Source: Hydrogenophilales bacterium 16-61-112
GTDB lineage: Bacteria > Pseudomonadota > Gammaproteobacteria > Burkholderiales > Thiobacillaceae
NCBI GenBank assembly: GCA_002257045.1
Contig: NCHD01000009.1
Location: 1-62,195, forward strand
Direction: 5' to 3'
DNA: 62,195 bases
Both the position numbers and the translations under genes were made by a program. Position 1 is the first letter of the stretch. Each line of letters begins with the position of its first letter. Positions 3,864 through 60,624 of the stretch are shown here, one piece after another. A model generated the notes under the pieces. The model had not been told where the DNA came from. It worked only from the letters and a program-made list of their open reading frames with translations, and did no database searches.

Positions 3864-4587
3864 GTATTTTCTCCCTTGCTGTCAGACCGGCGCGCCTGAG
3901 CGTTTCTTCGGCCAATTCCATGTAGGCTTTCGCGCCCTTGCACTGGCGGTCGTAGGCCAGCACCGGCAAGCCGTGGCTGGGCGCTTCGGCCAGCCGCACA
4001 TTGCGCGGTATCACAGTGTCGTACACCTTGTCGCCGAAATGCTGCTTGATCTGATCGGATACCTGCTGCGCCAGCGTGCTGCGCGGATCGAACATCACGC
4101 GCAGCAAGCCTTCAATGCGGATATCCGGATTGAGGCGCTGCTTGACCTTCTTGATGGTGGCGACCAGATCGGTCAGCCCTTCCAGCGCGTAGTACTCGCA
4201 CTGCATCGGAATCAGCACCGCCTCGGCCGCCGCAAACGCGTTGACGGTCAGCAAATTCAGCGTCGGCGGGCAATCCATCAGGATGAAATCATAGTCATCG
4301 GCCACCCGCTCCAGCGCCGACTTCAGGCGCATGTCGCGTTGGTCCAGATTCACCAGATCGATTTCCGCCCCCGCCAGCTCGCGGTTGGCCGGAATCACGT
4401 CGAAATGCCCGGGTTGGGAGCGCACCCGCGCCTCGGCGACGCTCACCTGGTTGAGCAGGATCTGGTACACGAGGTCGGCCAGCAGCACGCGCTGCCCGAG
4501 TTCGGCCAGGCTCGCGGCCAGGTTCACCGCTGTCGTCGTCTTGCCGACGCCGCCTTTTTGGTTGGCAATCGCCAGGATACGGCTCAT
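3856..4587 (-). CDS. parA: Chromosome-partitioning ATPase ParA with an internal in-frame deletion
   Basis: The protein starts [10 protein letters not shown] with an intact deviant Walker A motif KGGVGKT at 11-17 and a later Walker B region [18 protein letters not shown]. ParA dimers bind DNA with ATP and drive ParB-parS segregation. It is 243 residues, shorter than the usual 255-265. The shortfall is at one place: after RVLLADL (residue 39) the text jumps straight to VYQILL. The family normally has DLDPQGN and about 13 further residues there. This segment carries the switch-I aspartate and P-Q-G-N residues needed for ATP hydrolysis. Reading frame is kept, so about 19-20 codons appear to be missing near 4470. 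The deletion is either real or an assembly error. It overlaps parB and rsmG by a few bases. Confidence 0.92.
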
Positions 4588-24800: not shown

Positions 24801-26435
24801 TCAGGCTTTTGCTGGCGCAGGCTTGCTGCCCTCGACCTGTTTGTTGATCCACCACTGCTGCGCAATCGACAGGATGTTGTTGACGACCCAGTACAGCACC
24901 AGACCCGACGGGAAGAACACGAACATGACGGTGAACATCACCGGCATGATCATCATGATCTTGGCCTGCATCGGGTCCATCGGTTGCGGGTTCAACTTGA
25001 CCTGCAGAACCGAGGTGATGCCCATGATGATTGGCAGGATATAAAGCGGATCCGGAGCGGTCAGGTCGGTAATCCAGCCAAGCCAGGGTGCGCCACGCAT
25101 TTCGACGGCGGCCAGCAACACCCAGTACAGGGCGATGAAGACCGGAATCTGGATCAGGATGGGCAGACAGCCGCCGAGCGGATTGATTTTCTCGGTCTTG
25201 TACATATCGGCCATGGCCTGATGCAGCTTGGCGCGGTCATCGCCATAGTTTTCCTTCAGCTTTTGCAGGCGCGGCGTCAGCGTTTTCATTTTGGCCATCG
25301 ACTTGTAGCCGGCGGCCGACAATGGATACAGGGCCAGCTTGAGGAAAATGGTCAGAATGATGATGGCCCAGCCCCAGTTTCCGACGATGCGCTCGATCTT
25401 GTCCAGCGCCCAGAAAATAGGGAAAGCAAGCGGCGTCAACCAGCCATAGTCACGTGCCAGATCGAGGCCGGGTGCGGTTTGTTCGAGTACGGTCTGGGTT
25501 TGCGGGCCGGCATACAAGGGAACGGTGAAGGTTTTTTGCTGCCCGGGCGCGAGCAGACCTTCGGCGAGGATTACGCCGGCGGAATAAATGCCATCGGACG
25601 AACGCGCATAAAACTCGCGTTTGATCGTGCCTTCGGGCAACCAGGCCGCAACGAAATGATGCTGGACGATGCCGACCCAGCCATTGTCGGCGTTCTTCTC
25701 GAACTCGGCCTTGTTTTCAGCGACCTTGTTGAAGGGGACTTTCTGGAATTTTTTGGCATCGGTATAAACCGCTGCGCCAGTGTAGGTCGGCAAGAAGAAC
25801 TGCGATCCGCGTGGCGGTTCGCCATGGCGAGACAACTGGTAATAAGGCGTGAGATCGACAGGCTGCGTGCCACCGTTGATGACCCGCATCCTGACGGCAA
25901 TCTCGTAACTGCCGCGCTTGAAAATATAGGTCTTCTCGACCCGCACACCGGTAACCGGGTCGGTCCAGCTCAAAGGCACTTCCAGTTGCGCGGCGCCTCC
26001 GACCAGTCGGTAGGTCCCGGGATTGAGCTGGAACAGGCTGCGGTGCGTGGGCAGGTTCTTGCCGATCAGACCGCTTTGCGCCATGTAAGGCGTGGTCTGG
26101 TTGTCTTCAAACAGGGTAAAAACCTGATTCCTGTCGTCCGTTTCACGATAGGGCAGAAGCTGTAGCTGGCGCAAATCGCCACCATTCGCATCGATGACCG
26201 CGTGCAGCACATCGGTTTCCACCACGGCGCGCTGGCCTTTGGCAAACCCGGCCTGCGCCGGCGTCGGCGCAGGCGCATTCAATGCCTGGCTTGGCGTCGG
26301 CACCGCCTGGCCGGCGGGCGTGCTCATCGCACTCGGGGGGACCGGTACCGGTGTATTTTTGTCCTGCCAGGCTTCCCACAACAACAGCAGCGAAAAGGAA
26401 AAGACGATAAATAAAATCAGTCGCTGATTATCCAT
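24801..26435 (-). CDS. yidC: Membrane protein insertase YidC
   Basis: A 544-residue YidC of the Gram-negative type. An N-terminal anchor (MDNQRLILFIVFSFSLLLLW) is followed by a large periplasmic beta domain (about 75-330) and the five-helix insertase core at the C-terminus, including the amphipathic region KMKTLTPRLQKLKENYGDD and the conserved helix GGCLPILIQIPVFIALYWVL. YidC inserts Sec-dependent and Sec-independent inner-membrane proteins such as F0 subunit c. The start ATG is at 26433-26435 (complement); an open extension upstream runs into rnpA and is not used. Only 17 bp separate it from rnpA: the yidD gene usually found between them is missing. Confidence 0.96.
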   Translation of the reverse strand: MDNQRLILFIVFSFSLLLLWEAWQDKNTPVPVPPSAMSTPAGQAVPTPSQALNAPAPTPAQAGFAKGQRAVVETDVLHAVIDANGGDLRQLQLLPYRETDDRNQVFTLFEDNQTTPYMAQSGLIGKNLPTHRSLFQLNPGTYRLVGGAAQLEVPLSWTDPVTGVRVEKTYIFKRGSYEIAVRMRVINGGTQPVDLTPYYQLSRHGEPPRGSQFFLPTYTGAAVYTDAKKFQKVPFNKVAENKAEFEKNADNGWVGIVQHHFVAAWLPEGTIKREFYARSSDGIYSAGVILAEGLLAPGQQKTFTVPLYAGPQTQTVLEQTAPGLDLARDYGWLTPLAFPIFWALDKIERIVGNWGWAIIILTIFLKLALYPLSAAGYKSMAKMKTLTPRLQKLKENYGDDRAKLHQAMADMYKTEKINPLGGCLPILIQIPVFIALYWVLLAAVEMRGAPWLGWITDLTAPDPLYILPIIMGITSVLQVKLNPQPMDPMQAKIMMIMPVMFTVMFVFFPSGLVLYWVVNNILSIAQQWWINKQVEGSKPAPAKA

Positions 26436-26452
26436 GGGGCGGAGTGTCGTTT

Positions 26453-26869
26453 TTAAGTGGGGAGGGGATCGGGCGAAAGATCGCCCGCTTGTGCGTTTGG
26501 CCATTTTGCCATGGCACGATGACCGGCACGTTTAAAGGTGCGCGACAAGTCGCGTGCTTCATCGCCGGGAACCGGCCTGGCAATCAAACGAACCACGAAA
26601 TCACAGGCTGGCAGTTCCGGCAGGACCTGCCGGAAGCTTTCGCGCACGCATCGCTTGACACGATTGCGGTCGACCGCACGCGCAAGCAGGCGCTTGGCCA
26701 CAATCATGCCCAAACGCGGGTGTCCCACCTGATTAGGGCGCACCATCACCATTACAAAATCGGTTCGAGCGCGCTGATTTTCGGCAAAAACACGATCAAA
26801 GTCGGCTTTATTGACCAGCCGCGCGTCGTGGAAGCGAACGCTTCCAGCCTTTTCAGGATGCGTGTCGAT
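26453..26869 (-). CDS. rnpA: Ribonuclease P protein component, start codon unclear
   Basis: The frame encodes a typical RnpA: FHDARLVNKADFDRVFAENQ, then PRLGMIVAKRLLARAVDRNR and RVKRCVRESFRQV, the RNR motif that contacts P RNA. It is the protein cofactor of RNase P, which trims tRNA 5' ends. The conserved N-terminal half has no ATG, GTG or TTG in frame: between the rpmH stop (26873-26875), which is in the same frame, and the conserved text there is only CTA-ATC-GAC-ACG... The first in-frame ATG (26752) lies after about 39 codons of clearly homologous sequence and would remove part of the fold. A non-standard ATC start at 26869, or a lost start codon, are the options. The stop is at 26453. Confidence 0.85.
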   Translation of the reverse strand: MDTHPEKAGSVRFHDARLVNKADFDRVFAENQRARTDFVMVMVRPNQVGHPRLGMIVAKRLLARAVDRNRVKRCVRESFRQVLPELPACDFVVRLIARPVPGDEARDLSRTFKRAGHRAMAKWPNAQAGDLSPDPLPT

Positions 26870-26872
26870 TAG

Positions 26873-27007
26873 TTAAACGGCCAGACGAGCGCGGCCTTTG
26901 GCACGACGTGCATTGATGACGGCACGACCCGATTTCGTTTTCATGCGGGCACGAAAGCCGTGGGTACGCTTGCGACGAACGGTAGAGGGTTGATAAGTAC
27001 GTTTCAT
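26873..27007 (-). CDS. rpmH: 50S ribosomal protein L34
   Basis: A 44-residue, highly basic protein that reads [18 protein letters not shown]... to KGRARLAV, an unmistakable bL34. It binds 23S rRNA in the large subunit. A good ribosome-binding site (AAAGGA) precedes the ATG at 27005-27007 (complement). It is the first gene of the rpmH-rnpA-yidC cluster and is divergent from dnaA, the standard arrangement at bacterial origins. Confidence 0.98.
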
Positions 27008-27162: not shown

Positions 27163-27229
27163 CCTCATCGAAGGGGAGTAAGATTCGGCCTCGAATCCTA
27201 TGCCGCTATCCGCACCCCGCCTCCCTACT

Positions 27230-28576
27230 ATGGATTCCTTCTGGGACCTTTGCCAAGAGCGCTTTCGCGCCAACCTCACCCAGCAGCAATTCAGCACATG
27301 GATCAAGCCCCTGGTGTTCGATGACTCGAACGGGGAGGTGCGCATTCTTGCGCCCAACCATTTCGTAATGGACTGGGTGCGTGAAAAATTCGCCGAGCAC
27401 ATCAGTGAGTGGGCGCTGGAGTTTTATCCGGAGCAAGTTTCCATTGTGTATGCGCTCGGAAAAAAGCCTGCTGCAAGCCGCCCCCCTGCTCCCCCGTCTC
27501 ACATCGAACCCCGATCGTCACAACCTGAACGCGCAGTCGTTGCACCCGTTCAATCGGGCATGCGCATCAATCCAGCGTTCAATTTTGATAATTTTGTGTC
27601 GGGACGCGCCAACCAGCTGGCCCGCGCGGCTGCCTTGCAAATCTCCAATAATCCGGGGGCTGCCTACAACCCGCTGTTTGTTTATGGCGGCGTCGGCCTG
27701 GGAAAAACCCATTTGCTACAGGCCATCGGCAATACGGTGCGCGAAGCCAACCCGGACGCACGCATCAGCTACATCCACGCCAATGATTATGTGGACGATG
27801 TGGTCAAAGCCTATCTCAACAAGCAGTTCGATGACCTCAAGCGACGCTACATGTCACTGGATCTGCTGTTGATCGACGACATTCAGTTTCTGGCCAAGAA
27901 GGACCGAACCCAGGAAGAGTTCTTCTATGTTTTCAATTCCCTGATCGAAAACAAGAAACAGATCGTCATCACCTGCGATACTTTCCCCAAGGAAATCAAC
28001 GGCCTGGATGACCGGCTGAAATCGCGTTTTGCATGGGGTTTGACGGTCGCTGTCGAACCGCCCGAACTTGAAATGCGGGTCGCCATCCTGTTGGCCAAGG
28101 CGCAATCCGAAAACACCACGCTCGATGAAACGGTGGCTTTTTTCATCGCCAAGCAGGTGCGTTCCAATGTGCGGGAACTGGAAGGCGCGCTCAAGCGCGT
28201 AATCGCGTTTTCGCGCTTTCATGAAAAGCCCATCACCCTAGAACTGGTCAAGGAAGCCCTGCGCGACCTCATCGCCTCGACGTCACGGATCGTATCCATA
28301 GAAAACATCCAGAAAACCGTCGCCGACTTTTATAAAATCAAGGTCGCCGACATGTTTTCCAAAAAAAGAACCCGCAATCTGGCCCGTCCGCGTCAGATCG
28401 CGATGGCCCTGTCCAAGGAACTGACCAACCAGAGCCTGCCTGAAATCGGCGAATCGTTTGGTGGACGCGACCATACAACCGTGATTCACGCATGCCGAAA
28501 AGTCGCTGAATTACGTGAAACAGAAGTGGATATCGGGCGTGATTATTTAACCTTGTTACAGATCCTGACAGGCTAA
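27230..28576 (+). CDS. dnaA: Chromosomal replication initiator protein DnaA
   Basis: A 448-residue DnaA (458 if the ATG at 27200 is used). Domain I begins MDSFWDLCQERFRANLTQQQ, followed by a Pro-rich linker (about 85-120). The AAA+ domain has Walker A YGGVGLGKTHLLQAIGN near 160 and Walker B LLLIDDIQFLAKKDRTQEEF near 218. Domain IV carries the DnaA-box-binding signature GGRDHTTVIHACRKV near 424. It is complete, with no sign of the short deletions seen in dnaN and parA. Neither candidate start has a clear ribosome-binding site; 27230 gives the normal betaproteobacterial N-terminus. Confidence 0.96.
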   Translation: MDSFWDLCQERFRANLTQQQFSTWIKPLVFDDSNGEVRILAPNHFVMDWVREKFAEHISEWALEFYPEQVSIVYALGKKPAASRPPAPPSHIEPRSSQPERAVVAPVQSGMRINPAFNFDNFVSGRANQLARAAALQISNNPGAAYNPLFVYGGVGLGKTHLLQAIGNTVREANPDARISYIHANDYVDDVVKAYLNKQFDDLKRRYMSLDLLLIDDIQFLAKKDRTQEEFFYVFNSLIENKKQIVITCDTFPKEINGLDDRLKSRFAWGLTVAVEPPELEMRVAILLAKAQSENTTLDETVAFFIAKQVRSNVRELEGALKRVIAFSRFHEKPITLELVKEALRDLIASTSRIVSIENIQKTVADFYKIKVADMFSKKRTRNLARPRQIAMALSKELTNQSLPEIGESFGGRDHTTVIHACRKVAELRETEVDIGRDYLTLLQILTG

Positions 28577-28755: not shown

Positions 28756-29801
28756 ATGCTATTAATACAAAGCGAACGTAACGCACTGCTTGCAGCACTG
28801 ACTTCTGTGGTAAAGCCGGCAAGCTCACCCTGCTGGCAACCGATCTTGAATTGCAGATCAGCACCCAACTCGACGCACAGGCGGGTGAGGACTTTGCGAT
28901 TACCATCGCAGCCCGCAAGCTGTTTGATATCGTTCGTGCACTGCCCGATTCAGCCAAGGTCAAGCTCGACACCAAGGACAGCCAGGTGGTGGTGAGCGCG
29001 GGCAAATCGCGCTTCACCCTGCAAACCTTGCCGGCGGCCGATTTCCCCCGCGTTGAAACTGGATCAGGCCTCGGCGAAGCCATCCATTTGCCGCAAAAGA
29101 AGCTCAAGCGCCTGCTGCAACTGGTGCAGTTCGCAATGGCAAGCCAGGACATCCGTTATTACCTCAACGGCATGCTGCTGGTGCTGGAAGGCAAGCAATT
29201 GCGTGTGGTGGCAACCGACGGCCATCGCCTGAGTTACGCTGAAACCGAGCTCGACATGGATGCGGGCACGCGCGAAGTCATCATTCCGCGCAAAACCGTG
29301 GTTGAGCTGTCCAAGCTGCTGGCCGATGTCGATGACGCGGTAGAACTCAGGATCGGCGCCAATCAAGTCACCATTACGCTGCCGGGTACTGAACTGGTCA
29401 CCAAGGTGGTGGACGGCAAGTTTCCCGATTACCAGCGCGTCATTCCGCTCAACCAGCCGCGTCACCTCAAGGCCAATCGCCAGACCGTGATTCAGGCACT
29501 GCAGCGCGCGGCCATTTTGTCGAATGAAAAGTTTCGCGGCGTTCGTCTTGTGATGAGCGAAAACACCCTGGGCATCGTGTGCAACAACAACGAGCAGGAA
29601 GAAGCCGCCGACGAGATCGAGGTCAGCTTCACGGGCGAACCACTCGACATGGGGTTCAACGTAACCTACCTGCTGGATGGCTTGGGCGCAGTCAACAGTG
29701 AAGAAATTACCCTGTCGCTGGGCGATGCCAACAGCAGCATGCTGCTCACCAGCGAAGGCGAACCCGGTTTCAAATATGTCGTGATGCCCATGCGCATTTA
29801 A
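28756..29801 (+). pseudogene. dnaN: DNA polymerase III sliding clamp, interrupted by a short frameshifting deletion
   Basis: The gene starts correctly (CAGGAA ribosome-binding site, then MLLIQSERNALLAALTSVV) and continues as a typical beta clamp from KLTLLATDLELQISTQLD to the usual C-terminus KYVVMPMRI. Between them the conserved block that normally reads TGIVERRHTLPILSNVL is absent, and the frame changes by one base. The break is at about 28809-28815; the missing piece must be 3n+1 bases, about 67-73 by comparison with the family. As written only residues from an internal ATG (28851) could be translated, giving 316 residues without the first strands of domain I. The clamp is essential, so an assembly error or a second copy elsewhere is likely. 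It lies between oriC and gyrB as usual. Confidence 0.9.
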
Positions 29802-29829: not shown

Positions 29830-32355
<2,526 letters not shown>

Positions 32356-32645
32356 ATTGTCGGGTGACACAACAAATGAAATTTGTGACAAGTTAGTGCA
32401 AAACTACTGACACAGATAATGAAATTAAAAGCCCCTCATGGAGCCTTGCCAATCTAATAAGATTTAAATGGGTCTCGTCGCCTGCATGGAGCTCGTGTCC
32501 AACAGGCATGGTTTTGGCGCCCTGGAACTACCACGCCCGATCAACTGAATTCAACAACTCGGCTTGCCAACAGCGGCAGCTCAAGCGGCGTTGCACTTTG
32601 GCTGTTCTTCGGCCTTAGCTGCCATTCCATCCAACAAGACAATGC
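32356..32645. other. Intergenic stretch between gyrB and the restriction operon
   Basis: These 290 bp between convergent gyrB and hsdR hold no convincing gene. The first 100 bp are AT-rich. No clear terminator hairpin with a T-run was found. It marks the junction between core chromosome and the accessory island, but no attachment-site repeat could be identified by eye. Confidence 0.5.
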
Positions 32646-35600
32646 CTATCCTTCTGCCCAGCCTGCTGACAGCAACTCAGCCTGCGCGAGCACTGTTTTA
32701 ACAGCCTCCTCCTGCAAGTCCGGCGGGTAACCATACTTGTTCAGGATGCGCTTCACCATCACGCGAATCTTTGCCCTTGCGCCTTCGCGCAGTGTCCAGT
32801 CTATCGTCACGCTCTTGCGCACCTGCGTAATGAGTTCGGCGGCGATGACTCTGAGTTTGTCGTCGCCCATGGCGATGACGGCGCTCTGGTTGGCGGCAAG
32901 CGCGTCGTAAAAAGCCACCTCGTCATCCGCCAGGCCAAGCGCTTCACCGCGCTTGGTAGCGGCGTCGAGGTCCTTGGCGAGCTGGATCAGCTCTTCGATC
33001 ACCTGCATCGTCGAGATGGCGCGGTTGTGGTACGCGTTGAGGGTCTTCTTGAGCTTCTCGCTGAAGACCTGGCTCTGCACAAGGTTGCGCCTGGAGCGAA
33101 CCTTGAGTTCGTCCTTGAGCAGTTTCTCCAGCAACTCGGCGGCGACGTTTTTGTGCTTCAAGCCGCGCACTTCGGCGAGGAACTGGTCGGAGAGGATCGA
33201 AATGTCCGGCTTGGGCAAGCCGGCAGCGGTAAAAACGTCGATCACCTGGCCCTCGGTGGTGATGGCTTTGGAGACGAGCTGGCGGATGGCGGCGTCGACC
33301 TGCTCCGGCGCCTTCCGGTTGTTGCTGCTCTGCTTGTTGAGCGCGGCCTGGATCGCCTGAAAGAAACTCACGTCGTCGCGAATCTGGGTCGCTTCATCGC
33401 TGGCAGCGCAGAGGGCGAAGGCGCGGGAGAGTTCCGTCACCACCTGCACCCAGCGCTTCTTGCCGTCGTCCTGTTCGAGGATGTGCTCCTGCCCGGCGGG
33501 GATGAGGGCGAGGCGTTCGGTGGGTTTGCCCGTGATCCACTTGTCCCAGTTGAAGCCATGCATCATGTCGCAGGCGATGCCATGTTTCTCCAGCATCACG
33601 GCGATGGCCTGCGCGGTATCGAAGGTCGGATTGCCCTGGCCGCCGCTCTCGGTGTAAGTCACCAGCGCCTGCTTGAGTTGATCCGCCAGCCCTAGGTAAT
33701 CCACCACCAAGCCCCCCGGTTTGTCGCGAAACACGCGGTTCACCCGCGCGATGGCCTGCATCAGTCCGTGGCCCTGCATCGGCTTGTCGGCGTACATCGT
33801 GTGCAGGCAGGGCGCATCGAAGCCGGTCAGCCACATGTCGCGCACGATGACAATCTTGAAAGGGTCTTTGGCATCCTTGAAGCGATTCGCCAAATCACGC
33901 CGCTGCTTTTTGTTCCCGATGTGCTTCTGCCAATCCGGGCCGTCGTCGGCGCTGCCGGTCATCACCACTTTTAGCGTGTCCTCGCTCCAGTCCGGGCGCA
34001 GCGCGATGAGCGCGTTGTAAAGGTCTACGCAAATGCGTCGGCTCATGCAGACAATCATCGCCTTGCCGTCCATCGCCTCCACGCGCTTCTCGAAATGCGC
34101 CACCAGATCGGCGGCAATCAGCGCGATGCGTTTCGGGTCGCCCACCAGCGCCTCCAGCGCGGCCCATTTGGTTTTGAGCTTTTCCTTTTTGGTCAGCTCA
34201 TCGCCTTCGGTGATTTCCTCAAACTCCGCGTCGAGCTTCGGCAGCTCGGCGGCGTTCAGGCTCAGCTTGGAAATCCGGCTCTCGTAATAGATCGGCACGG
34301 TAGCCTTGTCGGCGACCGCGCGCTGGATGTCGTAGATGGAAATGTAATCGCCGAAAACAGCCCGCGTGTTCGCGTCGGTTTTCTCGATCGGCGTGCCGGT
34401 AAAGCCGATGAACGACGCATTCGGCAAGGCATCACGCAGATTGCTGGCGAAGCCGTAGGACATCTCGCCGGTCTTCTCATTCACCTTGCCGCCAAACCCA
34501 TACTGGCTGCGGTGCGCTTCATCGGCGATGACCACGATGTTCTGCCGCGCACTCAGCTCGGGCATCGCCGTATTCTTTTCCGGCATGAACTTGTGGATGG
34601 TCGTGAACACCACGCCGCCGCTTGCCCGGTTCAGCAGCGCCCGCAAATCCTCGCGCCCGTCCGCCTGCACCGGCATCTGGCCGAGGATGTCGTGGCAGCG
34701 CTGAAACTGGCCGAAAAGCTGGTCGTCGAGATCGTTGCGGTCGGTCAGCACCACCAGCGTCGGATTCTGCATCGCAGCGTGCCGCACCACGCGCGCAGCG
34801 TAGAACAGCATGGAGAAACTCTTGCCGCTGCCCTGCGTGTGCCACACCACGCCCGCGCGCCGGTCACCTGGCTTGCCGCCGTGCATGCGGCCTGCCCAGT
34901 AGGTGCCCACATCCTGCTTCGCCGTGTTGGCCTCGGCCATGCCCGCAGTCATACCACTGGCGCGCACCGTTTCCTCCACCGCCGCATTCACCGCATGGAA
35001 CTGATGGTAGCCCGCGATAATTTTATGCAGCGCGCCTGAGTCCGGGTCTTCCTCGAAGACGATGAAATGCTGGAGCAGATCTAGGAAGCGCTGCCGCCCG
35101 AACACGCCGCGCACCAGCACCTCCAGCTCCAGCGCCGTCTTCGGCGCATCGCCCTCACCATCAATCGTGCGCCAAACCTTGAACCACTCCTGGTTCGCCG
35201 TCACCGAACCCATGCGCGCCTGCAAACCGTCGCTCACCACCAGCGCCGCGTTGTAGTGCAGCAGCGAGGCAATCTCCGCCTTGTAGGTTTGAAGCTGCGC
35301 GTAGGCGCTCCAGATCGTCGCGTCCTCATCCGCCGCATTCTTCAACTCGATCAAGCCCAGCGGCAGCCCGTTCACGAAAACCACGATGTCCGGCCGGCGG
35401 TTGTGCTGCGCCCCACCCGACGTTTCGATCACCGTGAACTGGTTCACCGCCAGCCAGTCGTTCGCCCGCACATCGCCAAAATCCACCAGCCGCACGTGAT
35501 CGCCCGCGATGCTGCCGTCCCTGCGCGGGTATTCCACCGGCACGCCATCGCGCAGCATCCGGTGAAAGGCGCGGTTGGTTTGCGTCAGCGAAGGCGTCCC

Positions 35601-35828
35601 CACCCGCAGCACACGGCGCACAGCGTCCTCGCATGCCTCCTCGGGAATGGTCGGGTTCAGCCGCCGAACCGCCTCGCGCAAGCGCCCCACCAGCACCACA
35701 TCGCCAAACGAATCCCGTTCCGCCGCCGGTTCGCCGGGCGCAATATGCGGCCCGTGGCCGATGGCATAACCCAGCGCCTCGAACCATTCGAGGGCGGCGT
35801 CTTCGACGATGGATTCGTTGAGGCTCAT
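32646..35828 (-). CDS. hsdR: Type I restriction endonuclease subunit R
   Basis: A full-length 1060-residue HsdR. The nuclease domain has the PD-(D/E)XK elements D147 (RRPDIVVFV) and E161-L-K163. The superfamily 2 translocase has Walker [12 protein letters not shown] near 330-340, DEAH at 436-439 in [15 protein letters not shown], and [10 protein letters not shown]. The C-terminal helical part assembles with HsdM/HsdS. It would cleave unmodified DNA far from the recognition site after ATP-driven translocation. It is the last gene of the - strand defence operon, and its start overlaps the rhuM stop (ATGA). Its first 158 bp are also present as a diverged copy at 36974-37131. Confidence 0.95.
35671..35828. 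repeat. Direct repeat copy A (5' end of intact hsdR)
   Basis: This 158-bp segment, the first 53 codons of hsdR, is matched without gaps by 36974-37131. By eye the copies are roughly 80-85% identical in DNA, and about 43 of 54 residues agree in protein. Confidence 0.85.
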
Positions 35829-36874
35829 GGTTTCGGTGTCTTGGGTTTTTTGGGGCGAGACAGCTTCTTCAATTCCTGCGCAGCCTTCTCAAAATCCGCA
35901 TCCACGCGCTGTGGCTGCGCATCCAGCAAGGCTCGATACCGGAAATACTCCAACTCGGCCTTCGCGCGGGCATCATCGGCGGAAACCTTCCCCGCATGGT
36001 CCAGCAGCTCGCGCCCCGAGATTTTCAGGAACTCGTCCAGCTTCGTAATCCAGTCGCGCATCGTCATCGGCTTGCGCTCCAGCGCCTGTAGCTCCGCGTA
36101 TTCGATGTAGAGGTTCACGATGCGGTTGAGCACCTGAAGCTCATCTTGAGTGAGGTAATTCTTGGCGACAGCCACGTCGTCCTTCCGCACGATGCCGCCT
36201 GGCCGCGTGGTTTGCAGACCCATGAAAGGCTTCGCCGCATCCGCCCGCTCCGCGATGACCTCAGCGGCGGTGTGACCATGCGTCGCCCAGTGCATCTTGT
36301 TCTGCACGGCGGCAAAGAAACGGTGAGAAGTCTCCGCGTCCGGCGTGTAGTCCACACTCGTTGCGTAAATATCCAGCACCTTCTGGTAAAACCGCCGCTC
36401 CGACGAGCGAATATCGCGGATACGCTCCAGCAGCTCGTCGAAGTAATCCTTCTGGCCCTTGCCCGGTGGGTTTTTCAGCCGCTCGTCGTCCATGGTGAAG
36501 CCCTTCACCAGATACTCGCTCAAGCGCGCCGTCGCCCACTGCCGGAACTGCGTGCCGCGCTGGCTGCGCACGCGGAAGCCGACGGCGAGAACAGCCTCCA
36601 ACCGGTAATGGCGGAGCTTCCGAGAGACCTCGCGCCCGCCTTCCAATCGAACTTGTAAGTAATCCTTACAAGTTGCCGCTTCGACCAGCTCACCCTCGGC
36701 AAAGATGGCTTTCAGGTGCAGCGTCACGTTCTGAGGCGTTGTCTGAAACAGCTCCGAAATCTGAGCCTGCGTCAGCCACAGGGTCTCGTCCTCAAACCGA
36801 CACTGCACGCGCGTCCGCCCATCTTCCGTCTGGTAGAGGATGATTTCAGATTGGGGTAAAGGTTCGTCGCTCAT
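35825..36874 (-). CDS. rhuM: RhuM family protein associated with type I restriction systems
   Basis: A 349-residue RhuM-family protein. It contains [20 protein letters not shown] (a helix-turn-helix-like N-terminus), [20 protein letters not shown] and [20 protein letters not shown], the signature of PF13310, then a helical, positively charged C-terminus rich in Lys/Pro. RhuM was named from a Salmonella pathogenicity island. Its relatives are frequent passengers in type I restriction operons, where their role is not known; an accessory or regulatory role in defence is inference. The start overlaps the stop of the fossil hsdR fragment and its stop overlaps the start of hsdR, so translation is coupled. 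Confidence 0.88.
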
Positions 36875-37131
36875 GGTTTCTGATTACCCTCAATTCGAAC
36901 TTGTAAGTAACGCTTAATAGTTGGCCGAGCGTCCGCTGGAATGGCCGATCCCGCGTTTGCTGGACGCCAGATAGCCTCGCGTAAGCGCCCCACCAGCACC
37001 ACCTCGCCAAACGACTCCCGCACCGCCGCCGGTTCACCTGGCACGAGCTGCGGCCCGTGCCCGACCGCATAGCCCAGCTCCCCGAACCATTCGAGGTCGG
37101 CATCTTCGACGATGGATTCGTTGAGGCTCAT
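36871..37131 (-). pseudogene. Fossil hsdR N-terminus joined to a rhuM-like scrap (86-codon ORF)
   Basis: The ORF starts [20 protein letters not shown], about 80% identical to the start of the intact hsdR, and follows it for 54 residues (to GRLREAI). After a short unrelated joint, the tail KRYLQVRIEG resembles [10 protein letters not shown] in RhuM. It therefore looks like a deletion or recombination scar that fused an older hsdR start to a rhuM scrap. It starts 2 bp after the preceding stop, and its stop overlaps the rhuM ATG, so it may still be translated and act as a coupling peptide. No domain is complete. The copy is diverged, so it comes from another system, not a recent duplication. Confidence 0.8.
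36974..37131. repeat. Direct repeat copy B (fossil hsdR 5' end)
   Basis: The diverged partner of 35671-35828 in the same orientation and of exactly the same length. It begins with the ATG of the fossil hsdR and ends where homology to hsdR stops (after GRLREAI). Confidence 0.85.
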
Positions 37132-37133
37132 AC

Positions 37134-37979
37134 TTAAACTAGCGTAACCATTCCTCTGTTTGCTTTCAGCCCGATAAGGGCCGCCCGCAAGACTTGCATG
37201 CAAATTTGAGCGGTGTGTTGGTCTGGGTGGAAACTCGACGCCATCTGCTCATACGGGTGGATATAGTTTCTGAAGTCACGGACAGCGTGCCCAAACTTCT
37301 TTACATCAAGTCGTAGCACTCCGACTTCGTGGGAAACGTCGATGAGGTTAGCCAACGTCCACTCGTGGAATGGCCTGACCTTCCCCGTTTCCTTCTGCTT
37401 CGGGCTTGCCGAGGCTCGATTGAAATCAGCGGGATTCTTCAATGCCACCGCCATCAAGATTCCTTCCAAGACACTCCCACACATGAAGATTGCGGATAGC
37501 GGAGCGCCCGCAGCCACGCACTCGACTGCCTCTTTAACCCTTGCGGCTAGAATCTTCTCAACGCCGTGATCCAAGCCCAATCCTTCCACCGAAATTGCAC
37601 CGAAGTCGCGTTTGAGAAAGTCCGACTCCGTTTCCTGCTTTAGCTCCCTGCCCAAAAGACGGGCCGCAGTCCGTGTGCAATCTTCAAACTGGCGGTCTGC
37701 CCGCGCGTCCTTTCCCGGCTCGTTGAGATACCGCCAAACCTCCAGCAACCGCTCCAACGCCCTGCCTAAGTTCGCCGGTTCTTCGATCTCCCAGAACGCA
37801 CGTAATCGCTTCGCCTTTGATGTGCCGTTGTAGGCATAGCGTGGATCGTAAATATTGATTCCGACGTCTTGCCGAAAGAACTCGGCAAATTTTTGGTCGG
37901 AGAAATTTAAGACATATCCGCTAGACATCCCGAATAGGTCTTCAAATCGCTGCTTCTCAATGGTGGAAAGGGAGCTCAT
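37134..37979 (-). CDS. Hypothetical defence protein with HEPN-like motif, first gene downstream of Abi
   Basis: A 281-residue soluble protein without membrane segments that I cannot assign to a named family with certainty. The C-terminal third contains a helical region ending FGHAVRDFRNYIHPYEQM; the R-N-x-x-H element followed by P-Y is reminiscent of HEPN/DUF4145-type and other abortive-infection-associated proteins. The middle (GVEKILAARVKEAVECVAAG, MCGSVLEGILMAVAL) is alpha-helical. The start MSSLSTIEKQRF (37979) overlaps the stop of the Abi gene by 4 bp; an upstream in-frame ATG (38024) lies inside that gene. Position inside the restriction operon suggests an anti-phage role, possibly RNA cleavage, but this is inference. 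Confidence 0.6.
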   Translation of the reverse strand: MSSLSTIEKQRFEDLFGMSSGYVLNFSDQKFAEFFRQDVGINIYDPRYAYNGTSKAKRLRAFWEIEEPANLGRALERLLEVWRYLNEPGKDARADRQFEDCTRTAARLLGRELKQETESDFLKRDFGAISVEGLGLDHGVEKILAARVKEAVECVAAGAPLSAIFMCGSVLEGILMAVALKNPADFNRASASPKQKETGKVRPFHEWTLANLIDVSHEVGVLRLDVKKFGHAVRDFRNYIHPYEQMASSFHPDQHTAQICMQVLRAALIGLKANRGMVTLV

Positions 37980-39097
37980 TGCGTTGCTTGGTTCGTGTCC
38001 GCAGGCGCACTCACCTTTAGCCAAGTGAGAAGCCGTTCCGATGCGTCCGTTATCTTGCTCGCATCAATTCCTTCTTTCCCCAGAACGCGGCGAAATCCGA
38101 CTTTAATCCGTGCCCGTAAGTTTTCGCGGGTCTGCCAATCAACGCCGCTGTTTGATTCGGCGGTTGCAAGCAGTGAGTTAATAAGTTCGTCGTTCGGTGC
38201 GGCGTTTATGCCCTCGCTGACTACGAAAGCACGAAGGCCATCGCGCAGATTTGCGAACACACCCGAATACTCGCCCACAACAACGACCGCTGGCGGCTCA
38301 GTGGCGGTGGCAGCTTCTGGTTGCGGTGTTGGCGTTGCAGTATGCTCGACCGGTTCTTCTTCCTCATCCTCGTCGCCTTCCTCAAGCGTATCGGGCGCAT
38401 CGGTCAACACTCCCACAAATGCGGTTCGGTCGATGCCGTAGAGAAGACGGCTTGGTTCGATGCGAAGCTCGAGTTTCTCTGTTCTTCCGAAAATGCTCAG
38501 TGACAGAACCAGCATTGGACCGCCGCCTTCATCATCGACTTCTGCCTCGATCCCGACCGAACGATCAATCCGGTCACAAAGGTGTTTGAAGCGTTCGTAT
38601 GGCTCACGCGTGAACAGGAGATTGGGCTGCTTCCCTTCGAGAGCGTTCAGCAGCAGACCAACAATTGCGTCCCCGGTATGGAGAAAAGCACGTGCATGGT
38701 CCTCCTCGATTACGTCGAGAAAACCATCTTTGCCGTGAGCAACTAGCCCGTTCTCATTCCGCATTTCGCTCAAGGCATCTGAGAGCCGGTTGAATGCCGA
38801 GAGAACCTTATCCAGCTTGCTTGCTCCGCGTGAATTCTGGAGCCCCAGTGGCTTGAGGGCTGCGACAAGCAGCTCTGTCGAAGTGGGGCCCGACGATGGA
38901 AGCGGTTCTCCAAACTCGCCCAGGATCGTGATGCAAACGCACTCGATGAAAGACTTCACATGCTCGACGACGCCGTGCCCATCACCAGCGATGCAGTTGG
39001 ATATTGCCTCGTGATACTGCAAAAGCGCGGGAGCCTGCGGCCAGCGTTCGCTTGCACGGCGATAATTCGGTAGCGGCAATGTCGCGTCGAGGTTCAT
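37976..39097 (-). CDS. Abortive infection C-terminal-domain-like protein in the restriction operon
   Basis: A 373-residue soluble protein. Residues 85-130 hold the pattern LSDALSEMRNENGLVAHGKD; the R-N...H-G motif (R113, H121) matches the hallmark of Abi_C (PF14355), a HEPN-like family linked to phage exclusion. After it comes a beta-rich region (about 180-235), an acidic linker (EEGDEDEEEEPVEH, near 245), an Ala/Thr-rich stretch and a helical C-terminal domain (about 280-370). The start ATG overlaps the hsdS stop by 4 bp and its stop overlaps the next gene, so both extra genes are locked into the hsd operon. It may act if restriction fails, but no experiment is implied by sequence. Confidence 0.62.
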   Translation of the reverse strand: MNLDATLPLPNYRRASERWPQAPALLQYHEAISNCIAGDGHGVVEHVKSFIECVCITILGEFGEPLPSSGPTSTELLVAALKPLGLQNSRGASKLDKVLSAFNRLSDALSEMRNENGLVAHGKDGFLDVIEEDHARAFLHTGDAIVGLLLNALEGKQPNLLFTREPYERFKHLCDRIDRSVGIEAEVDDEGGGPMLVLSLSIFGRTEKLELRIEPSRLLYGIDRTAFVGVLTDAPDTLEEGDEDEEEEPVEHTATPTPQPEAATATEPPAVVVVGEYSGVFANLRDGLRAFVVSEGINAAPNDELINSLLATAESNSGVDWQTRENLRARIKVGFRRVLGKEGIDASKITDASERLLTWLKVSAPADTNQATQ

Positions 39098-40415
39098 GCG
39101 CTAGGCTGAAGGTCTGACACGCTCAACTCCCCGCTTAGCAGCTTTGGCAGCAGACTGTCACGCAGGGTAGCGAGGGTGCGGGATTGTTCTTCGTTCCGGT
39201 GAATCTGTTCCGTCCATGCGGCGAGGAATTTCGCGGCGGCTTTTTGAATGGGGAGCGGTGGGAGAAGCACTGACACCCGGCGAAGCTCGGATTGCCTGAT
39301 GCCCTCAACGGTCGTTCCTGTTCCGCGATTGATGATGTCCGTCTGACATGCCGGCGATTCGAGCCAGTAGTAAAGGAACGCCGGTTCACACACGCCCGGA
39401 TTCGCCCGCATCGCGAAGATGCGTTGGCTCAGACAAAAGCGGGCATCTAGTGCCAAATAGTAGAGTTCTCCGAGCGGAGCCTCGGAGGTCATCAAGATGT
39501 CGCCGAGCGCGAGCTTGTCCTTCATCCATCGTTCGTAGAGTTCCTCGCTCACGAAGTTGAACATGTCGTGCCGCACCAGTCGGCCGCCTTTCACGTTCTT
39601 CGCTGACACGGCGGGAATCCCGGTCGGTGACCAATCGCTACCCATCTTCTTCGGCGTCCTGCCGCGATAGTCGATGATGAGGGAAGTGGCGTCTTCAATG
39701 GTTCCAACTCTCCAACCGACCGGAACCTGCCCGAGAGAGGAGTCTTGGAACGAGTCGGGAAGAGGGCGGCGGTGGCTGGGTCGAGGGCGGCGGCGGGGCG
39801 GCCGTCGAGTTTGGCGCGGACGGGGTCGAAATCCACGAACCAGCTCTGGAACAGCGCCCGCGCCATCACCTCCAGCGTCGCGTTCATCCGCCGGTTCAAC
39901 TCGATCTTGTCGTCCAGCGCCCCAAGGACCGCCGCGATGGCTTTTTGCTCGGCGAGGTGTGGAACTTCCACCTCCATCTTCGCGAGGTCGGAGCCGTTAA
40001 TAAATGGAAGCGCCGTTCCTGAGACAACCTCGTTGAAGTCCGTAGCCTTGAGAAGGTAGTAGAGGAACAGCGGCTCAACCTCCGACTCGATAGGCACAGC
40101 GGCCATCATGTTGTTGTCCACGATGGTCGGGCGCGAAAGCAGACGCCGCCGGTTGTAGGTCAGCGCAATTCCGATTTTGGCGAACACGGTGCTCGTCGCA
40201 GGATGTGGCTTTGCGCGTAACTCCTTCCGAGTTGCCTCGTCAATCCAATGGTTGGCGCGGGTAATTCGGTGCCGATTCCCCGGCAGTTCCATGTCGCTGA
40301 CCTTGATAAACGGATATTCGCCGAAAATGGCACCTTGATGCTTTTGCGGGAAACCTTGCCCGCCTCGAAACTCACATATTTCGCCAAGGCGTTTTAGTGT
40401 GCGTTCACCCGCCAT
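39094..40415 (-). pseudogene. hsdS: Type I restriction specificity subunit, broken by a one-base frameshift
   Basis: Two overlapping frames together encode one normal HsdS of about 440 residues. The first part (start [16 protein letters not shown], 40415) covers target-recognition domain 1 and the first conserved helix (LGALDDKIELNRRMNATLE), up to AALFP. The second frame resumes as DSFQDSSLGQVPVGWRVGTI, covers target-recognition domain 2 and ends with the second conserved helix (AAWTEQIHRNEEQSRTLATL). The shift is at about 39757-39762; one base is missing. Unrepaired, the protein would stop after 274 residues with only one recognition domain. A half-HsdS can sometimes dimerise and give a new specificity, but a sequencing error is equally possible. 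It overlaps hsdM by 11 bp. Confidence 0.9.
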
Positions 40416-42027
40416 AACCCAGCCCCCTCAGGTTTGCGTTGATGGCCTGCTCCAGTTTCGCGGACTCCTCGAACTGGGCGTGCAGTTCGGCGACGAGGCG
40501 CGGCATCTTTTCCTCGAAGGGTTCGCCGTCGTCTTCGACTTCCTCGGCGCCGACGTAGCGGCCGGGGGTGAGGACATAGCCGTGCGCGGCAATCTCCAAG
40601 GTGGTGGCGGATTTGCAGAAGCCGGCGAGGTCTGCATACGGTGCGGCCCCCTCTCCCCGGCCCTCTCCCACGAGGGGAGAGGGGGAAAGACGATCCCCAC
40701 GCCAAGCGTGATAGGTGGTGGTGATTTTCTCGAGGTCGGCGTCGGTCAGCTCGCGGTGGACGCGGTCGATGAGGGTGCCCATTTTCCGCGCGTCGATGAA
40801 GAGGGTTTGCTTTTTACGATTGCGGAAGCCGCGTTTGGCATCGGCGTTTTTATTTTTCGTGACGAACCAGAGGCAGACGGGAATTTGCGTGCTGTAGAAG
40901 AGCTGGCCGGGCAGCGCGACCATGCAGTCCACCAGATCGGCCTCGATGAGGGCGCGGCGGATGTCGCCTTCGCCAGACTGATTAGAACTCATGCTGCCAT
41001 TGGCGAGGACGAAGCCGGCCATGCCGTGGGGCGCGAGGTGGTGGATGAAGTGCTGCACCCAGGCGAAGTTGGCGTTGCCCTTGGGCGGCACGCCATACTG
41101 CCAGCGCACGTCGTCGTCGCGGCGGTGCCAGTCGGAGTCGTTGAAGGGCGGGTTGGCGAGGACGTAGTCGGCGCGCAGGTCGGGATGGAGGTCGCGGCGG
41201 AAGGTGTCGGCGTGCTCTGCGCCAAAATCAGCTTCTATCCCGCGCAGGGCGAGATTCATCACCGCGAGGCGGCGGGTGGTGGCGTTGCTCTCCTGGCCGT
41301 AGATGCTGATGTCGCCGAGCTTGCCGCCGTGGGATTCGACGAATTTTTCCGACTGCACGAACATGCCGCCGGAGCCGCAGGCGGGGTCGTAGATGCGGCC
41401 TTTGTAAGGGGCGAGCATTTCGACCAGGCAGCGCACGATGCAGGACGGGGTGTAGAACTGACCGCCGTTTTTGCCCTCGGCGCTGGCGAAGCGGGTGAGG
41501 AAATACTCATACACGCGGCCGAGCAGATCGACCGAGCGGTGGGTCTTCTCACCCTCGCTGGCGGCGGTGAGTTCGATGGTGGCGATGACGTCGATGAGCT
41601 CGCCGAGGCGTTGTTTGTCGAGGCCGGGGCGGGCGTAGTCCTTGGGCAGCACGCCCTTGAGGCGCGGGTTGTCGCGCTCGATGGCGACCATGGCGTCGTC
41701 TACGATCTTGCCGATGGCGGGCTGTTTGGCCGATGCCTGGAGGTGCGGCCAGCGGGCGTCGGCCGGCACCCAGAAAACGTTCTCGGCTTTGTATTCGTCG
41801 GGGTCTTCGGGGTTTGCGCCTGCGTAGTCGCCCTGGCCTTTGATGAGTTTGGCGCGGTGTTCCTCGAAGGTGTCGGAGATGTATTTGAGGAAGATGAGGC
41901 CGAGGACGACGTGCTTGTATTCCGCCGCGTCCATGTTGTTGCGCAGCTTGTCGGCGGTGAGCCAGAGCTTGGCCTCGAAGCCGAGATTGGCCGAGGAATC
42001 GTTCTTCCTGGTTGGCGTTTTCGCCAT
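40405..42027 (-). CDS. hsdM: Type I restriction-modification DNA methyltransferase subunit M
   Basis: A 540-residue HsdM. The helical N-terminal domain ([20 protein letters not shown]) is followed by the methyltransferase fold with SAM motif [16 protein letters not shown] near 208 and catalytic motif IV NPPFND near 280, which marks an N6-adenine methylase. It would methylate adenine in the HsdS-defined site and also support HsdR. It is the first gene of the operon. Near residue 450 an in-frame insertion encoding [14 protein letters not shown] replaces the normal short loop; this peptide is the usual translation of a widespread palindromic intergenic repeat. The insertion lies before the C-terminal [11 protein letters not shown] motif and keeps the frame. 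Confidence 0.94.
40649..40685. repeat. REP-like palindromic repeat inserted in frame in hsdM
   Basis: A C/T-rich then G/A-rich palindrome: CCCTCTCCC at 40661-40669 pairs with GGGAGAGGG at 40675-40683, preceded by a second CCTCTCCCC. It matches the kind of CTCTCCC/GGGAGAG element common between genes in many proteobacteria; here it sits inside a coding region. Confidence 0.75.
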
Positions 42028-45802: not shown

Positions 45803-46041
45803 AACGGGACAAAACCTTGCGGCTTGCCCCGTTTGGATACATCTGACAGTACTACGAATTCGCAACTCCAGTATCGTCACTGCTCCAGCCTGAGTCAAGT
45901 CCCAGTCACTTTTCACCCCTGTTGAACGTCGGATTTAGAACCCGACGCGGACGTTGTTACGCCTAAAAACAGGGATATCCGACGGACGTTGTGGCGTTGG
46001 AGGGAGCGGTACGCCCTCCTGCTACGTGGCAAGGAGTAATC
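45803..46041. other. Gap before tnsA: terminator-like hairpin and possible TnsB-binding repeats
   Basis: A hairpin AAACGGG...CCCGTTT (about 45803-45834) follows the XRE gene. Then come TGTTGAACG at 45920 and two direct repeats, GCGGACGTTGTTACGCC (45947-45963) and ACGGACGTTGTGGCGTT (45982-45998), 35 bp apart and sharing CGGACGTTGT. Tn7-like ends begin TGT and carry repeated transposase sites close to tnsA, so this is the best candidate for one element end. It is not proven. Confidence 0.4.
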
Positions 46042-46764
46042 ATGCCTTCAAATTTATGGCAGGGGCGTTGGCAAGGTCGCGCTCCAATGGGCGATACCCA
46101 TCAGCGGGCAAGGCAAGTCATCAGCCCATCAGGCGGCATCGTTCGCGGCAAGTTTCCCAGCCGCAAAAACGGGCGGATGGTGCATCACGAGGGTCTGCTC
46201 GAACTGGAAGCGATCTATCTGTTCGAGACCTCGCCGCTGATCGTTCGTTACCGGGAGCAACCCGCAACGATTCATTTCCCGGACGGCGCACGGCTGCGGC
46301 GCTACACACCTGACTTCGAGCTGGTGCTGGCGTCTGGGGGCGTCGTGCTGATCGAGGTAAAGCCCGTCCGCAGCCTTCAGGACGAGGAGGTGCGGCACAA
46401 GCTCAACAGGGTAGCGGAACACATGCAACGCTCGGCCATGCCGTTCATCATTCTGACGGACGCAGAGATTCGTCAGGAGCCGCGCTTGTCCAGTCTGCGT
46501 TGGGTTTATCACCGTGCCGCGCGTGTGCCGCCGTCGCCTGACGCAGTGACTCTCGCTGCATTGCGCTACAGCAGTCACTTTCCCTTGGCGATTCACGCCG
46601 CCGCCAACCTGCTTGGTGAGTGCGGCATAGACCCCTATAGCCTGCTTCTTACGGGGCTTGCGCAATGCCCTCTGCATGAAGGGCTAACACCCGAAACGTT
46701 GATCCACCTGACCGAGGAGACACAGGATGCCTGGTTTTACATTGCGCAAGAACATGGCTTTTGA
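46042..46764 (+). CDS. tnsA: Tn7-like transposition endonuclease TnsA
   Basis: A 240-residue TnsA-family nuclease. In Tn7, TnsA cuts the 5' strands while TnsB cuts the 3' strands, giving true cut-and-paste movement. The endonuclease core is visible: a helix with conserved glutamate (GLLELEAIYLFE, 51-62), then YTPDFELVL with D91 and VVLIEVKP with E105 and K107, matching the E-D-K catalytic triad of Tn7 TnsA. The C-terminal half (about 150-240) is the helical domain that contacts TnsC. The start has a strong ribosome-binding site (CAAGGAGTAATC); an earlier in-frame ATG at 45991 has none. It overlaps tnsB by 38 bp. Confidence 0.9.
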   Translation: MPSNLWQGRWQGRAPMGDTHQRARQVISPSGGIVRGKFPSRKNGRMVHHEGLLELEAIYLFETSPLIVRYREQPATIHFPDGARLRRYTPDFELVLASGGVVLIEVKPVRSLQDEEVRHKLNRVAEHMQRSAMPFIILTDAEIRQEPRLSSLRWVYHRAARVPPSPDAVTLAALRYSSHFPLAIHAAANLLGECGIDPYSLLLTGLAQCPLHEGLTPETLIHLTEETQDAWFYIAQEHGF

Positions 46765-54354: not shown

Positions 54355-54726
54355 AATTTACGGGATGCCGACCTCGCCTACAGTAGTCGACAATATGGGC
54401 ACTCGAAATATTACCCCCCAGCACCTCTGCAAAGGGATGCACAATCACCGGGGCATGATTGCTTACCTACCGTCAAATTGTAGCCAGAGCAGGCCGGGAC
54501 GAATATACAAACGTGGGCTGCCGGAAATTTCATTTGTAGTGTCGCAGACGCCGGAGTTTCTCACTTTCCATGTCACGACGCCTAAACCGCTATGACAGAG
54601 AAAGTGAAAGTTGCCTTGTGAATCAGAGGGGAGCTTTTCACTTGTTGTGTCACACGACATGAATGTGTAGGATCCCATTGAAATCTAGATTTTTCCCAAA
54701 TCTTTAGATTTCATGAGAATTGATAG

Positions 54727-56991: not shown

Positions 56992-58392
56992 CAAGGAGGT
57001 CCTGCATGCACAGGCAGGTCGTTCCATACCCATTCCAGCAACGCTTGCTGGGCGCTTTGCGCCTGTTTGGCATTGGCGTGATTGACCAGCATGACGAAGG
57101 CCATGCGGCGTCCGCTGGCGGTGTACACATAGCCTGGCACGGCCTGCCAGCGGGCTGTCGTTGAAGCGACGCTTGAGCGTGCCGTCGATCGCAAGCAGCG
57201 GCAGGCTCGATTCGAACTCGGAAAACAGCGGGCTGGCGTAAGCCGCGCGAAGCAGCTGGTTCAGGGTCGTTGCGCTGACGCGTTCGATACGCGACAAGCC
57301 AGCACCGTTTTCCAGCACCAATTTATGGGTCGACACGTTGCGGCTGGCTAGCGCCGCAGTGACCGCGCGTGCGCCCTTGTCCAGCGTCGCCGGTGCGCCG
57401 TAGGCTTGCGCGCCCAGGGCCAGGAACAGGTTGCGTGTCATCAGGTTGTTGGAATGCTTGTTGAGGCTGGTCAGTATGTCGGTCAAGGGCGGCGAGCCAA
57501 ACCGCAGCAGCGGCGGTGTCGAAGGGGCCATGCCCGGCAGGGTCGATCCGGCGAGCGTGCCGCCTGCTTCTGCCCACAATCCGCGAAAGATGAAATCAAA
57601 GGTGACAACGGGCTCAAACAGGTTCAAGGACAGCGTCTGCTCGCCGCATCGCGCCGGATAACGGCCGCTCACCACCAGTTCCTGTCTGGCCGGATCGGGG
57701 ATGGCGGGCGTTACCGCTTCCTTCCAGCCATTGCAAGGCGCGCTGTCGGACAGCACCAGTTCGGAACGGGTGCTGATTCCGGGCAGCGCGACATCGGGAA
57801 CGATATCGACCCCTTGTCCGTTGGGTTTGAGATGCAGCAGCGTGGCATTGAAGTTGGCAAGCAGCGCGCCGGGAATGGCGTTGTAGAGCGCCAGGGGTTC
57901 GCCGTCAAACGCGCCGGGGTCGAGCGGCGGCAAGGCAAAATGGCGGGTATCGAGCAGCAGGTTGCCGCGTATGTGGCGCACCCCAAGCGCACGCAGTTCG
58001 CGCTGCAACAACCACAGGCGTTCCAGCGTCAGGCTCGGGTCGCCATGGCCCTTGACGATCAGGTCGCCTTCCAGCACGCCCTCCCTGATCGGACCGTCCG
58101 CCCAGATATCCGTCGACCAGGAATAGGCGGGGCCTAGCTGTTGCAAGGCGGCAAAACTGGTGACCAGTTTCATTACCGAAGCGGGGTTCATCGCCGCGTC
58201 GGCGTGATGCGCCAGAAGCGGCTCGGCTGCGTCCAGGTCCTGCACCACGACGGCCACATGATCGAGCGGGATGCGCGCCTGCTTCAGCGCGTCGATGAAA
58301 GCGGGCGGAAGCGCGGCGGCGTGCGCCGAAACCTCAAGGACGGCGAGCAGCAGGAGGGTGGCAAGGCGCGGAAAAATTCGGAGACTGGGCAT
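56991..58392 (-). pseudogene. dacB: D-alanyl-D-alanine carboxypeptidase/endopeptidase (PBP4), broken at the KTG motif
   Basis: This is a PBP4-type peptidase for cell-wall trimming. A signal peptide (MPSLRIFPRLATLLLLAVLE) is followed by the serine active site SVMK in MNPASVMKLVT near 70, and SNN in LNKHSNNLMTRNLF near 315. The third box (normally H-x-K-T-G-T-L) is missing: after NDSPLAGR (about 57145) the frame jumps into AVPGYVYTASGRRMAF in another frame. About 38 or 41 bases seem to be gone (3n+2). Without K-T-G the enzyme could not be active. The end, VNHANAKQAQSAQQALLEWV, is normal. Either a real deletion or an assembly collapse; parA and dnaN show the same kind of lesion. Confidence 0.9.
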
Positions 58393-59124: not shown

Positions 59125-60624
59125 TTACAGTGACTGGCGTATGGCCAGCACGGCCTGGTTGCGCAGCGACTTCAGCAGGGAGAGTTCCTTTTCGGGGATG
59201 GCGATGTCGCCCGGGTGCGGGCTGTCGGCAATGTCGGCATTGTTTTGCAGCGCGACGAGAAACACATCGGGCGGCGCCGCCAGCGAAAAGTCGAAAGCCT
59301 TGACCAGGGTCTGTACGTCGTCGCCAAAACCGAACTTGCCGCACATCGTGTTGTGGCGGCCATCCTTGATGCACAACAGCACATGCGCAAAGCCGATGCC
59401 GCTGTACATGGCTTCCAGAATCATGCGCAGGATATCGTTGATGGAGACCGTGTCGTCGATCAGTGAGTTGCTGATGTCCTGCAAGCCTGACGTGAGAATC
59501 GACTGCGCCCGGGCACTGCTGTGTTCGGCGGCGTGCTCGGGGTCGTCAGCGGCATCGTCGAGAATCGGCGAGCGCTCGTGCAGCACGCTGTCGTCCAGCG
59601 CGGTCTGCGCCGAGCCTGCTGCGCCCGGGATGCCGTCTTCCAGCCTGCTCTCGGCCGGTGCCGGCATGCCGGCCCATTTCGTTGCCTGGTGGGCAAACGC
59701 GCTCTGCTTCAGGTTCACGTTCACGGCGAGGGCGAACTGCGCGATGTCCTGCATCGATTTTTCCATCAGCCCGGTCAGCTGTTTTTCGGAAACCGGCAGG
59801 CAGTCGCCAAAGCGCGTGGTGAGTTTGGCCAGAGCCTGGCTGCGGTCGGCGTCCGGCGTATTGAGGATGACCTCGCACAACGCGTTTGCAAATCCGGCCA
59901 GCACCCGCAGCGGTTCGGCGCTGATGGCGGTTTTGCGGATTCTTTCGTCCGGCAGTTTTTTCATGCTCTGGACGAGCGGGTCCGGAAACCCCCAGTTTCT
60001 GGCAACGCCCATCCCCAGGTTTTCATACGAGACCCCCAGCACCTCGATCGAGGCCTTGGCTTCGCTCGCAGTGTCGGACGCAAGCCGTTGCCGGATCGTT
60101 GCGGCTTCCATCGGAAAATAGAACGTCGCCAGCATGCGGCCCAGGTGATGCAGCATGGCGCTGATGAACGCCTCCTCGGCATCCCTGAGCTGGGTTCTGC
60201 CCGCCAGCTCGCGCGCCAGCATGGCGGCGTAGAGGACTTTGACGAACTCTTCCTTGAGCTGCTGCGCGTGGGCCTTGTTTTCCAGGTTGTCGAACAGGAT
60301 CAGGCTCAGCGCAATGGAGCGCACCGTATCGAACCCGAGTATGACCACCGCACGCGAAATCGTGCTGATCTTGCCGCCGCCGACCTGGTTGTAGAACGCC
60401 ACGTTGGCCAGCTTCAGCAGCTTATTGGTGAGCGCAAAGTCGCGCAGGATGTTGTTGGACAGTTCATTGACGCCTTCGCGGTCGGACGAGGCGATGCGGT
60501 TGATCGCGCCGATCGCCTCGGACAAGGCGGGAAAGTCGCTTTCGGTCTGCATGCGCCGCAACAACACCTCCAGCGCGCCGGGCTTGGCGTCGCTGCCGGG
60601 TTCGGCTTGGGGTGTAAGCGTCAT
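59125..60624 (-). CDS. HDOD domain signalling protein with C-terminal GAF-like region
   Basis: A 499-residue soluble protein. Residues about 20-230 form an HDOD domain: DFPALSEAIGAINRIASSDR, ILRDFALTNKLLKLANVAFY, RAVVILGFDTVRSIALSLIL and AFISAMLHHLGRMLATFYFP, lacking the metal-binding HD residues as usual for HDOD. The C-terminal part (about 375-499, DTVSINDILRMILEAMYSGI then GFAHVLLCIKDGRHNTMCG) resembles a GAF-like sensor. HDOD proteins act in c-di-GMP, motility and stress networks, without known catalysis. The window also encodes an HD-GYP enzyme. It is monocistronic. Confidence 0.87.
   Translation of the reverse strand: MTLTPQAEPGSDAKPGALEVLLRRMQTESDFPALSEAIGAINRIASSDREGVNELSNNILRDFALTNKLLKLANVAFYNQVGGGKISTISRAVVILGFDTVRSIALSLILFDNLENKAHAQQLKEEFVKVLYAAMLARELAGRTQLRDAEEAFISAMLHHLGRMLATFYFPMEAATIRQRLASDTASEAKASIEVLGVSYENLGMGVARNWGFPDPLVQSMKKLPDERIRKTAISAEPLRVLAGFANALCEVILNTPDADRSQALAKLTTRFGDCLPVSEKQLTGLMEKSMQDIAQFALAVNVNLKQSAFAHQATKWAGMPAPAESRLEDGIPGAAGSAQTALDDSVLHERSPILDDAADDPEHAAEHSSARAQSILTSGLQDISNSLIDDTVSINDILRMILEAMYSGIGFAHVLLCIKDGRHNTMCGKFGFGDDVQTLVKAFDFSLAAPPDVFLVALQNNADIADSPHPGDIAIPEKELSLLKSLRNQAVLAIRQSL

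Follow-up and report, generated by a model that had tools for sequence, protein, structure and literature searches.

A frame-breaking hole in the dnaN gene of a draft genome related to Thiobacillus is almost certainly a local assembly error

The dnaN gene in the draft genome of Hydrogenophilales bacterium 16-61-112, which lacks a conserved block and changes frame at the resulting joint, almost certainly reflects an error in the local assembly of a fragmented draft rather than any real feature of the organism. This reading is favored because the losses seen in this draft ignore the reading frame, fall in unrelated conserved genes, and leave clean joints, while the remainder of dnaN bears the marks of continuing selection, all of which fits false joins. 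The assembly would have joined two pieces that lie apart in the actual chromosome and lost the intervening 58 bp, probably through a false join made during contig building or scaffolding; the 58 bp would then be present in the reads. In the organism itself, a single normal and unbroken dnaN most likely lies between dnaA and gyrB.

The draft genome comprises 2.90 Mb in 206 contigs, with a completeness of 94.35% and a contamination of 0.61%. It is related to Thiobacillus, and the named records closest to it are drafts of Hydrogenophilales and Thiobacillus. The window, i.e., the whole stretch of DNA that was analyzed (62,195 bp), is an entire contig of this draft (C112). The nearest relative was Hydrogenophilales bacterium 12-61-10 (locus L032, genome G041), to which the window aligns near dnaN over 9.3 kb at 95.0% and over a further 3.5 kb at 93.1% DNA identity; around the dnaN break, this alignment is otherwise interrupted by just three gaps (4, 1, and 1 bp). 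For comparison, 110 other dnaN loci were used, of which 30 came from whole genomes and 80 from named records; some genomes are represented in both sets.

Codons 20 to 38 of dnaN are absent from the draft, so that codon 19 leads into codon 39 with a change of frame after position 28811 (Table 1). The loss of a conserved block and the shift in frame had been recognized in the initial annotation, as had a missing length of the form 3n+1; its estimate of 67 to 73 bp was wrong, and the alignment with L032 sets the length at exactly 58 bp. The block had also been named correctly, but it reads VGVVERRHTLPILSN or VGVVERRQTLPILSN in the same-genus loci and not TGIVERR. The 58-bp gap is visible against all 19 same-genus loci aligned, and the two sides of the joint share no homology (0 bp). 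The intact dnaN of L032, which encodes 367 amino acids, carries the 58 bp, and its product covers positions 5 to 366 of the TIGR00663 profile. In a tblastn search with this protein, 109 of the 110 other loci proved to be full length, in a single frame, and with no more than 2 gap columns between residues 15 and 60. The one exception (L068) starts 3 bases from a contig end and is therefore cut there. Among the 111 loci examined, the window is thus alone in having an internally broken dnaN, which makes the break no ordinary variation; the only other incomplete locus is L068, at its contig end.

Table 1. Positions of dnaN, its neighbors, and the holes detected in the window
Feature	Position	Strand	Basis or remark
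Hole, 60 bp missing	4469..4470		Piece present in G042 and G043
dnaA, upstream neighbor	27200..28576	+	458-aa open frame; named from sequence by eye
dnaN, 5' part: codons 1-18 plus 2 bases of codon 19	28756..28811	+	Alignment with 19 same-genus loci; 1 difference in 56 bases versus L032
Joint, 58 bp of relatives absent	28811..28812	+	L032 alignment ends at 28811/9903 and restarts at 28812/9962
dnaN, 3' part: codons 39-367 and stop, different frame	28812..29801	+	99.1% identical to L032 residues 39-367
Open frame from TTG, 316 aa; proposed short clamp, rejected as product	28851..29801	+	Mechanical ORF finding
gyrB, downstream neighbor	29878..32355	+	825-aa open frame; named from sequence by eye
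Hole, 41 bp missing in dacB/PBP4-type gene, frame changed	57136..57137		Piece present in G042 and G043
Hole, 129 bp missing	59230..59231		Present ungapped in G043 and with 11 gap columns in G042

Downstream of the joint, purifying selection on the dnaN codons is strong. Comparison of 329 codons with those of L032 revealed 55 synonymous and 3 nonsynonymous changes, and 51 of the 60 nucleotide changes fall in third positions, which indicates that the gene was under selection until very recently and is no old pseudogene. The missing block spans loop I of the clamp. According to a passage in PMC5042465, residue R24 of this loop contacts DNA in E. coli, and the R24A replacement alone is viable; given that this single change is tolerated, any damage would come from losing the whole block and the frame.

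The strongest support for an assembly error, one of the options raised in the initial annotation, comes from the recurrence of similar holes in unrelated conserved genes throughout the draft. Ten draft contigs, including the window, were compared with those parts of the L032 genome that had been retrieved, and 8 of them (268.5 kb) aligned. A hole was defined as a clean single gap of 30 to 200 bp whose flanks showed at least 86% identity. Gaps of this length numbered 27 on the draft side and 11 on the L032 side before the flank filter and 19 and 6, respectively, after it. Two of the 19 were left out, one (C101:78095) that faces a run of N in L032 and one in glgB (C101:19471), where L032 seems to carry a duplication. 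This leaves 17 holes in 268.5 kb of the draft, approximately 1 per 16 kb. Apart from the apparent glgB duplication, L032 has holes of its own, the 6 clean gaps on its side being 31 to 88 bp long. The lengths of the 19 draft-side gaps, sorted by their remainders on division by 3 (8, 4, and 7), are close to equal thirds, so the holes ignore the reading frame; in contrast, 75 of the 140 gaps of 3 to 29 bp are multiples of 3. With 8 of the 19 lengths being multiples of 3, some holes may be real.

Conserved genes with holes include glk, yhdP, tldD, dacB, ccoO, lptD (essential in most Gram-negative bacteria), and katG, and the intact L032 versions of the hole-bearing genes run unbroken through their family profiles. 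The hole changes the frame in glk, yhdP, dacB, lptD, and katG; tldD and ccoO each lose a multiple of 3. Two further genomes (G042 and G043) were used to check the four holes of the window (at 4469, 28811, 57136, and 59230), and all four pieces were found in both. The holes of the other contigs rest on the comparison with L032, which has holes itself, and some of them could be insertions in that genome. When another contig (C100) was compared with G043, four such gaps were seen with flank identities of at least 0.75 (at least 0.86 in three of them), all on the draft side. The dacB/PBP4-type gene of the window contains, apart from its 41-bp hole, a further frame change at residue 118 (positions 58416 to 58419).

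A control scan was made on public loci around dnaN, each compared with its nearest partner. Among the 43 loci L032 to L074, 39 were over 9 kb long, and 29 of these had a partner with at least 86% identity. Only 4 missing pieces were detected in these 371 kb, so the hole rate of the draft is ∼6 times that of the control, a rough ratio, since the control represents one genome region with reciprocal pairs. Two natural routes to deletion were considered and rejected. Deletion between short repeats does not fit the joints: homology is 0 bp at dnaN and close to chance over 25 gaps, being absent in 14 of them (54% expected), although it reaches 3 to 4 bp in four, more than the ∼1.7 expected. With regard to deletion at hairpins, no clear folding tendency was seen in the missing pieces, whose mean rank among random pieces was ∼0.42 (24 gaps, RNA energies).

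A different reading, which we consider very improbable, is that the deletion is real in the sampled strain and that replication is carried by a second dnaN, unassembled or unbinned. Equally improbable is its more specific form, in which that clamp gene is divergent or unassembled and the dnaN beside dnaA has only just been lost. The completeness of 94.35% does leave a small part of the genome unseen, and this unassembled part is the only place where such a gene could sit. Contrary to the suggestion in the initial annotation, the 2.90-Mb draft yielded no second dnaN: a search with PF00712 gave a single match at the known locus, an N-terminal peptide of a relative matched just the two halves at that locus, and 81 bp of L032 DNA spanning the missing piece gave no convincing match among 20 short, weak ones. 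The best of these weak matches (E value of 0.009) falls at the end of contig C116, within an open frame that by eye does not resemble a clamp. Within the window, a degenerate pattern for part of the block had no matches with up to 3 mismatches, so the missing piece was not recognized elsewhere in it. PF00712 was matched in 37 of 41 genomes (the draft and 40 relatives) and in all 25 of those with at least 90% completeness and at most 5% contamination. Many genomes show second matches, which are weaker and lie directly beside the first, inside the same gene; among the best PF00712 matches, complete relatives as a rule have a single clamp locus each. A second dnaN would, moreover, leave the many other holes of the draft unexplained.

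No more probable is a real minor variant, in which the contig would follow a deletion present in part of the cells or in a lineage that is dying out within a mixed population. Mixed strains do confuse assemblers, as described in a passage of PMC7111523, but holes in unrelated genes would require the same chance every time, and the downstream dnaN codons show no relaxed selection. Production of a sufficient shortened clamp from the TTG at 28851, also proposed in the initial annotation, has a negligible probability: the 316-aa frame is open and scores 285.1 bits against TIGR00663 (curated cut-off, 137.65), but it matches only profile positions 53 to 366 of 367, its product would lack 51 residues, among them loop I, at the start of a domain that is kept in 109 of the 110 other loci, and the intact DnaN of L032 aligns end to end with the solved clamp 8xla. 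A ribosomal frame change at the joint, yielding a clamp short of 19 residues, can be dismissed with similar assurance, since a one-base step back would indeed reach the downstream frame, but a classical slippery heptamer is not apparent by eye at the joint, the conserved block would be missing from the product all the same, and no such step is needed by the 109 intact loci.

The window contains a better lead than the dnaN break, namely, a Tn7-like transposon of 22,302 bp (32358 to 54659) located exactly at the end of gyrB. Its Pfam-identified genes (45991 to 52912) encode TnsA-, TnsB-, and TnsC-like proteins and two TniQ proteins. The element has near-identical inverted ends that start with TGTCG and is flanked by a 5-bp direct repeat, TGAAT (32353 to 32357 and 54660 to 54664), that takes in the gyrB stop codon; in G042, the corresponding site at the gyrB end is uninterrupted. 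Relatives of the five Tns/TniQ proteins were not found in the 80 named loci. Among the matches listed for two Tn7 surveys (PMC8649781 and PMC10293859), there is no occurrence of gyrB, so the end of this gene may deserve a look as a target. The cargo (32646 to 42027) includes a type I restriction system, with HsdR at 32646 to 35828 and HsdM at 40405 to 42027, as well as one gene of the RhuM family and another that encodes an Abi_C domain. The HsdS-like gene, named by eye (39094 to 40415, minus strand), is split into two overlapping frames, which may represent one more hole or frame error. On the other side of dnaA, an rnpA-like frame (26435 to 26900, minus strand) seems, by eye, to extend farther upstream than its first ATG, and a yidD gene is not apparent by eye between this frame and yidC; the L032 alignment is ungapped at 26435 to 26900, so this region is not one of the holes.

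If the holes are assembly errors, the draft misleads anyone inferring gene loss or pseudogenes from it. A plain extrapolation from 17 holes in 268.5 kb gives ∼180 over 2.90 Mb, and the completeness and contamination scores of this genome provide no hint of them.

Local assembly errors in metagenome assemblies are described in passages of PMC7111523 and PMC5079060 as short stretches of wrong consensus that result in incorrect protein-coding genes and are suspected to be prominent in IDBA-UD assemblies; a passage of PMC5079060 also reports scaffolding errors in short regions of wrongly joined contigs. The dnaN hole resembles these errors in that the missing piece is kept in close relatives (109 of 110 loci) and in that such holes recur regardless of gene and frame. 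It differs in the kind of evidence, since the two papers define such errors by missing read support and the one proposed here is inferred from sequence comparison; the passages concerned mention no typical size of the lost pieces. With respect to the bacterial beta sliding clamp DnaN (TIGR00663, PF00712), for which an uninterrupted full-length frame is expected, the gene of the draft is distinguished by the absence of codons 20 to 38 and by the frame broken at 28811/28812, and it shares with this family the position between dnaA and gyrB and a strong match over all that remains of the gene.
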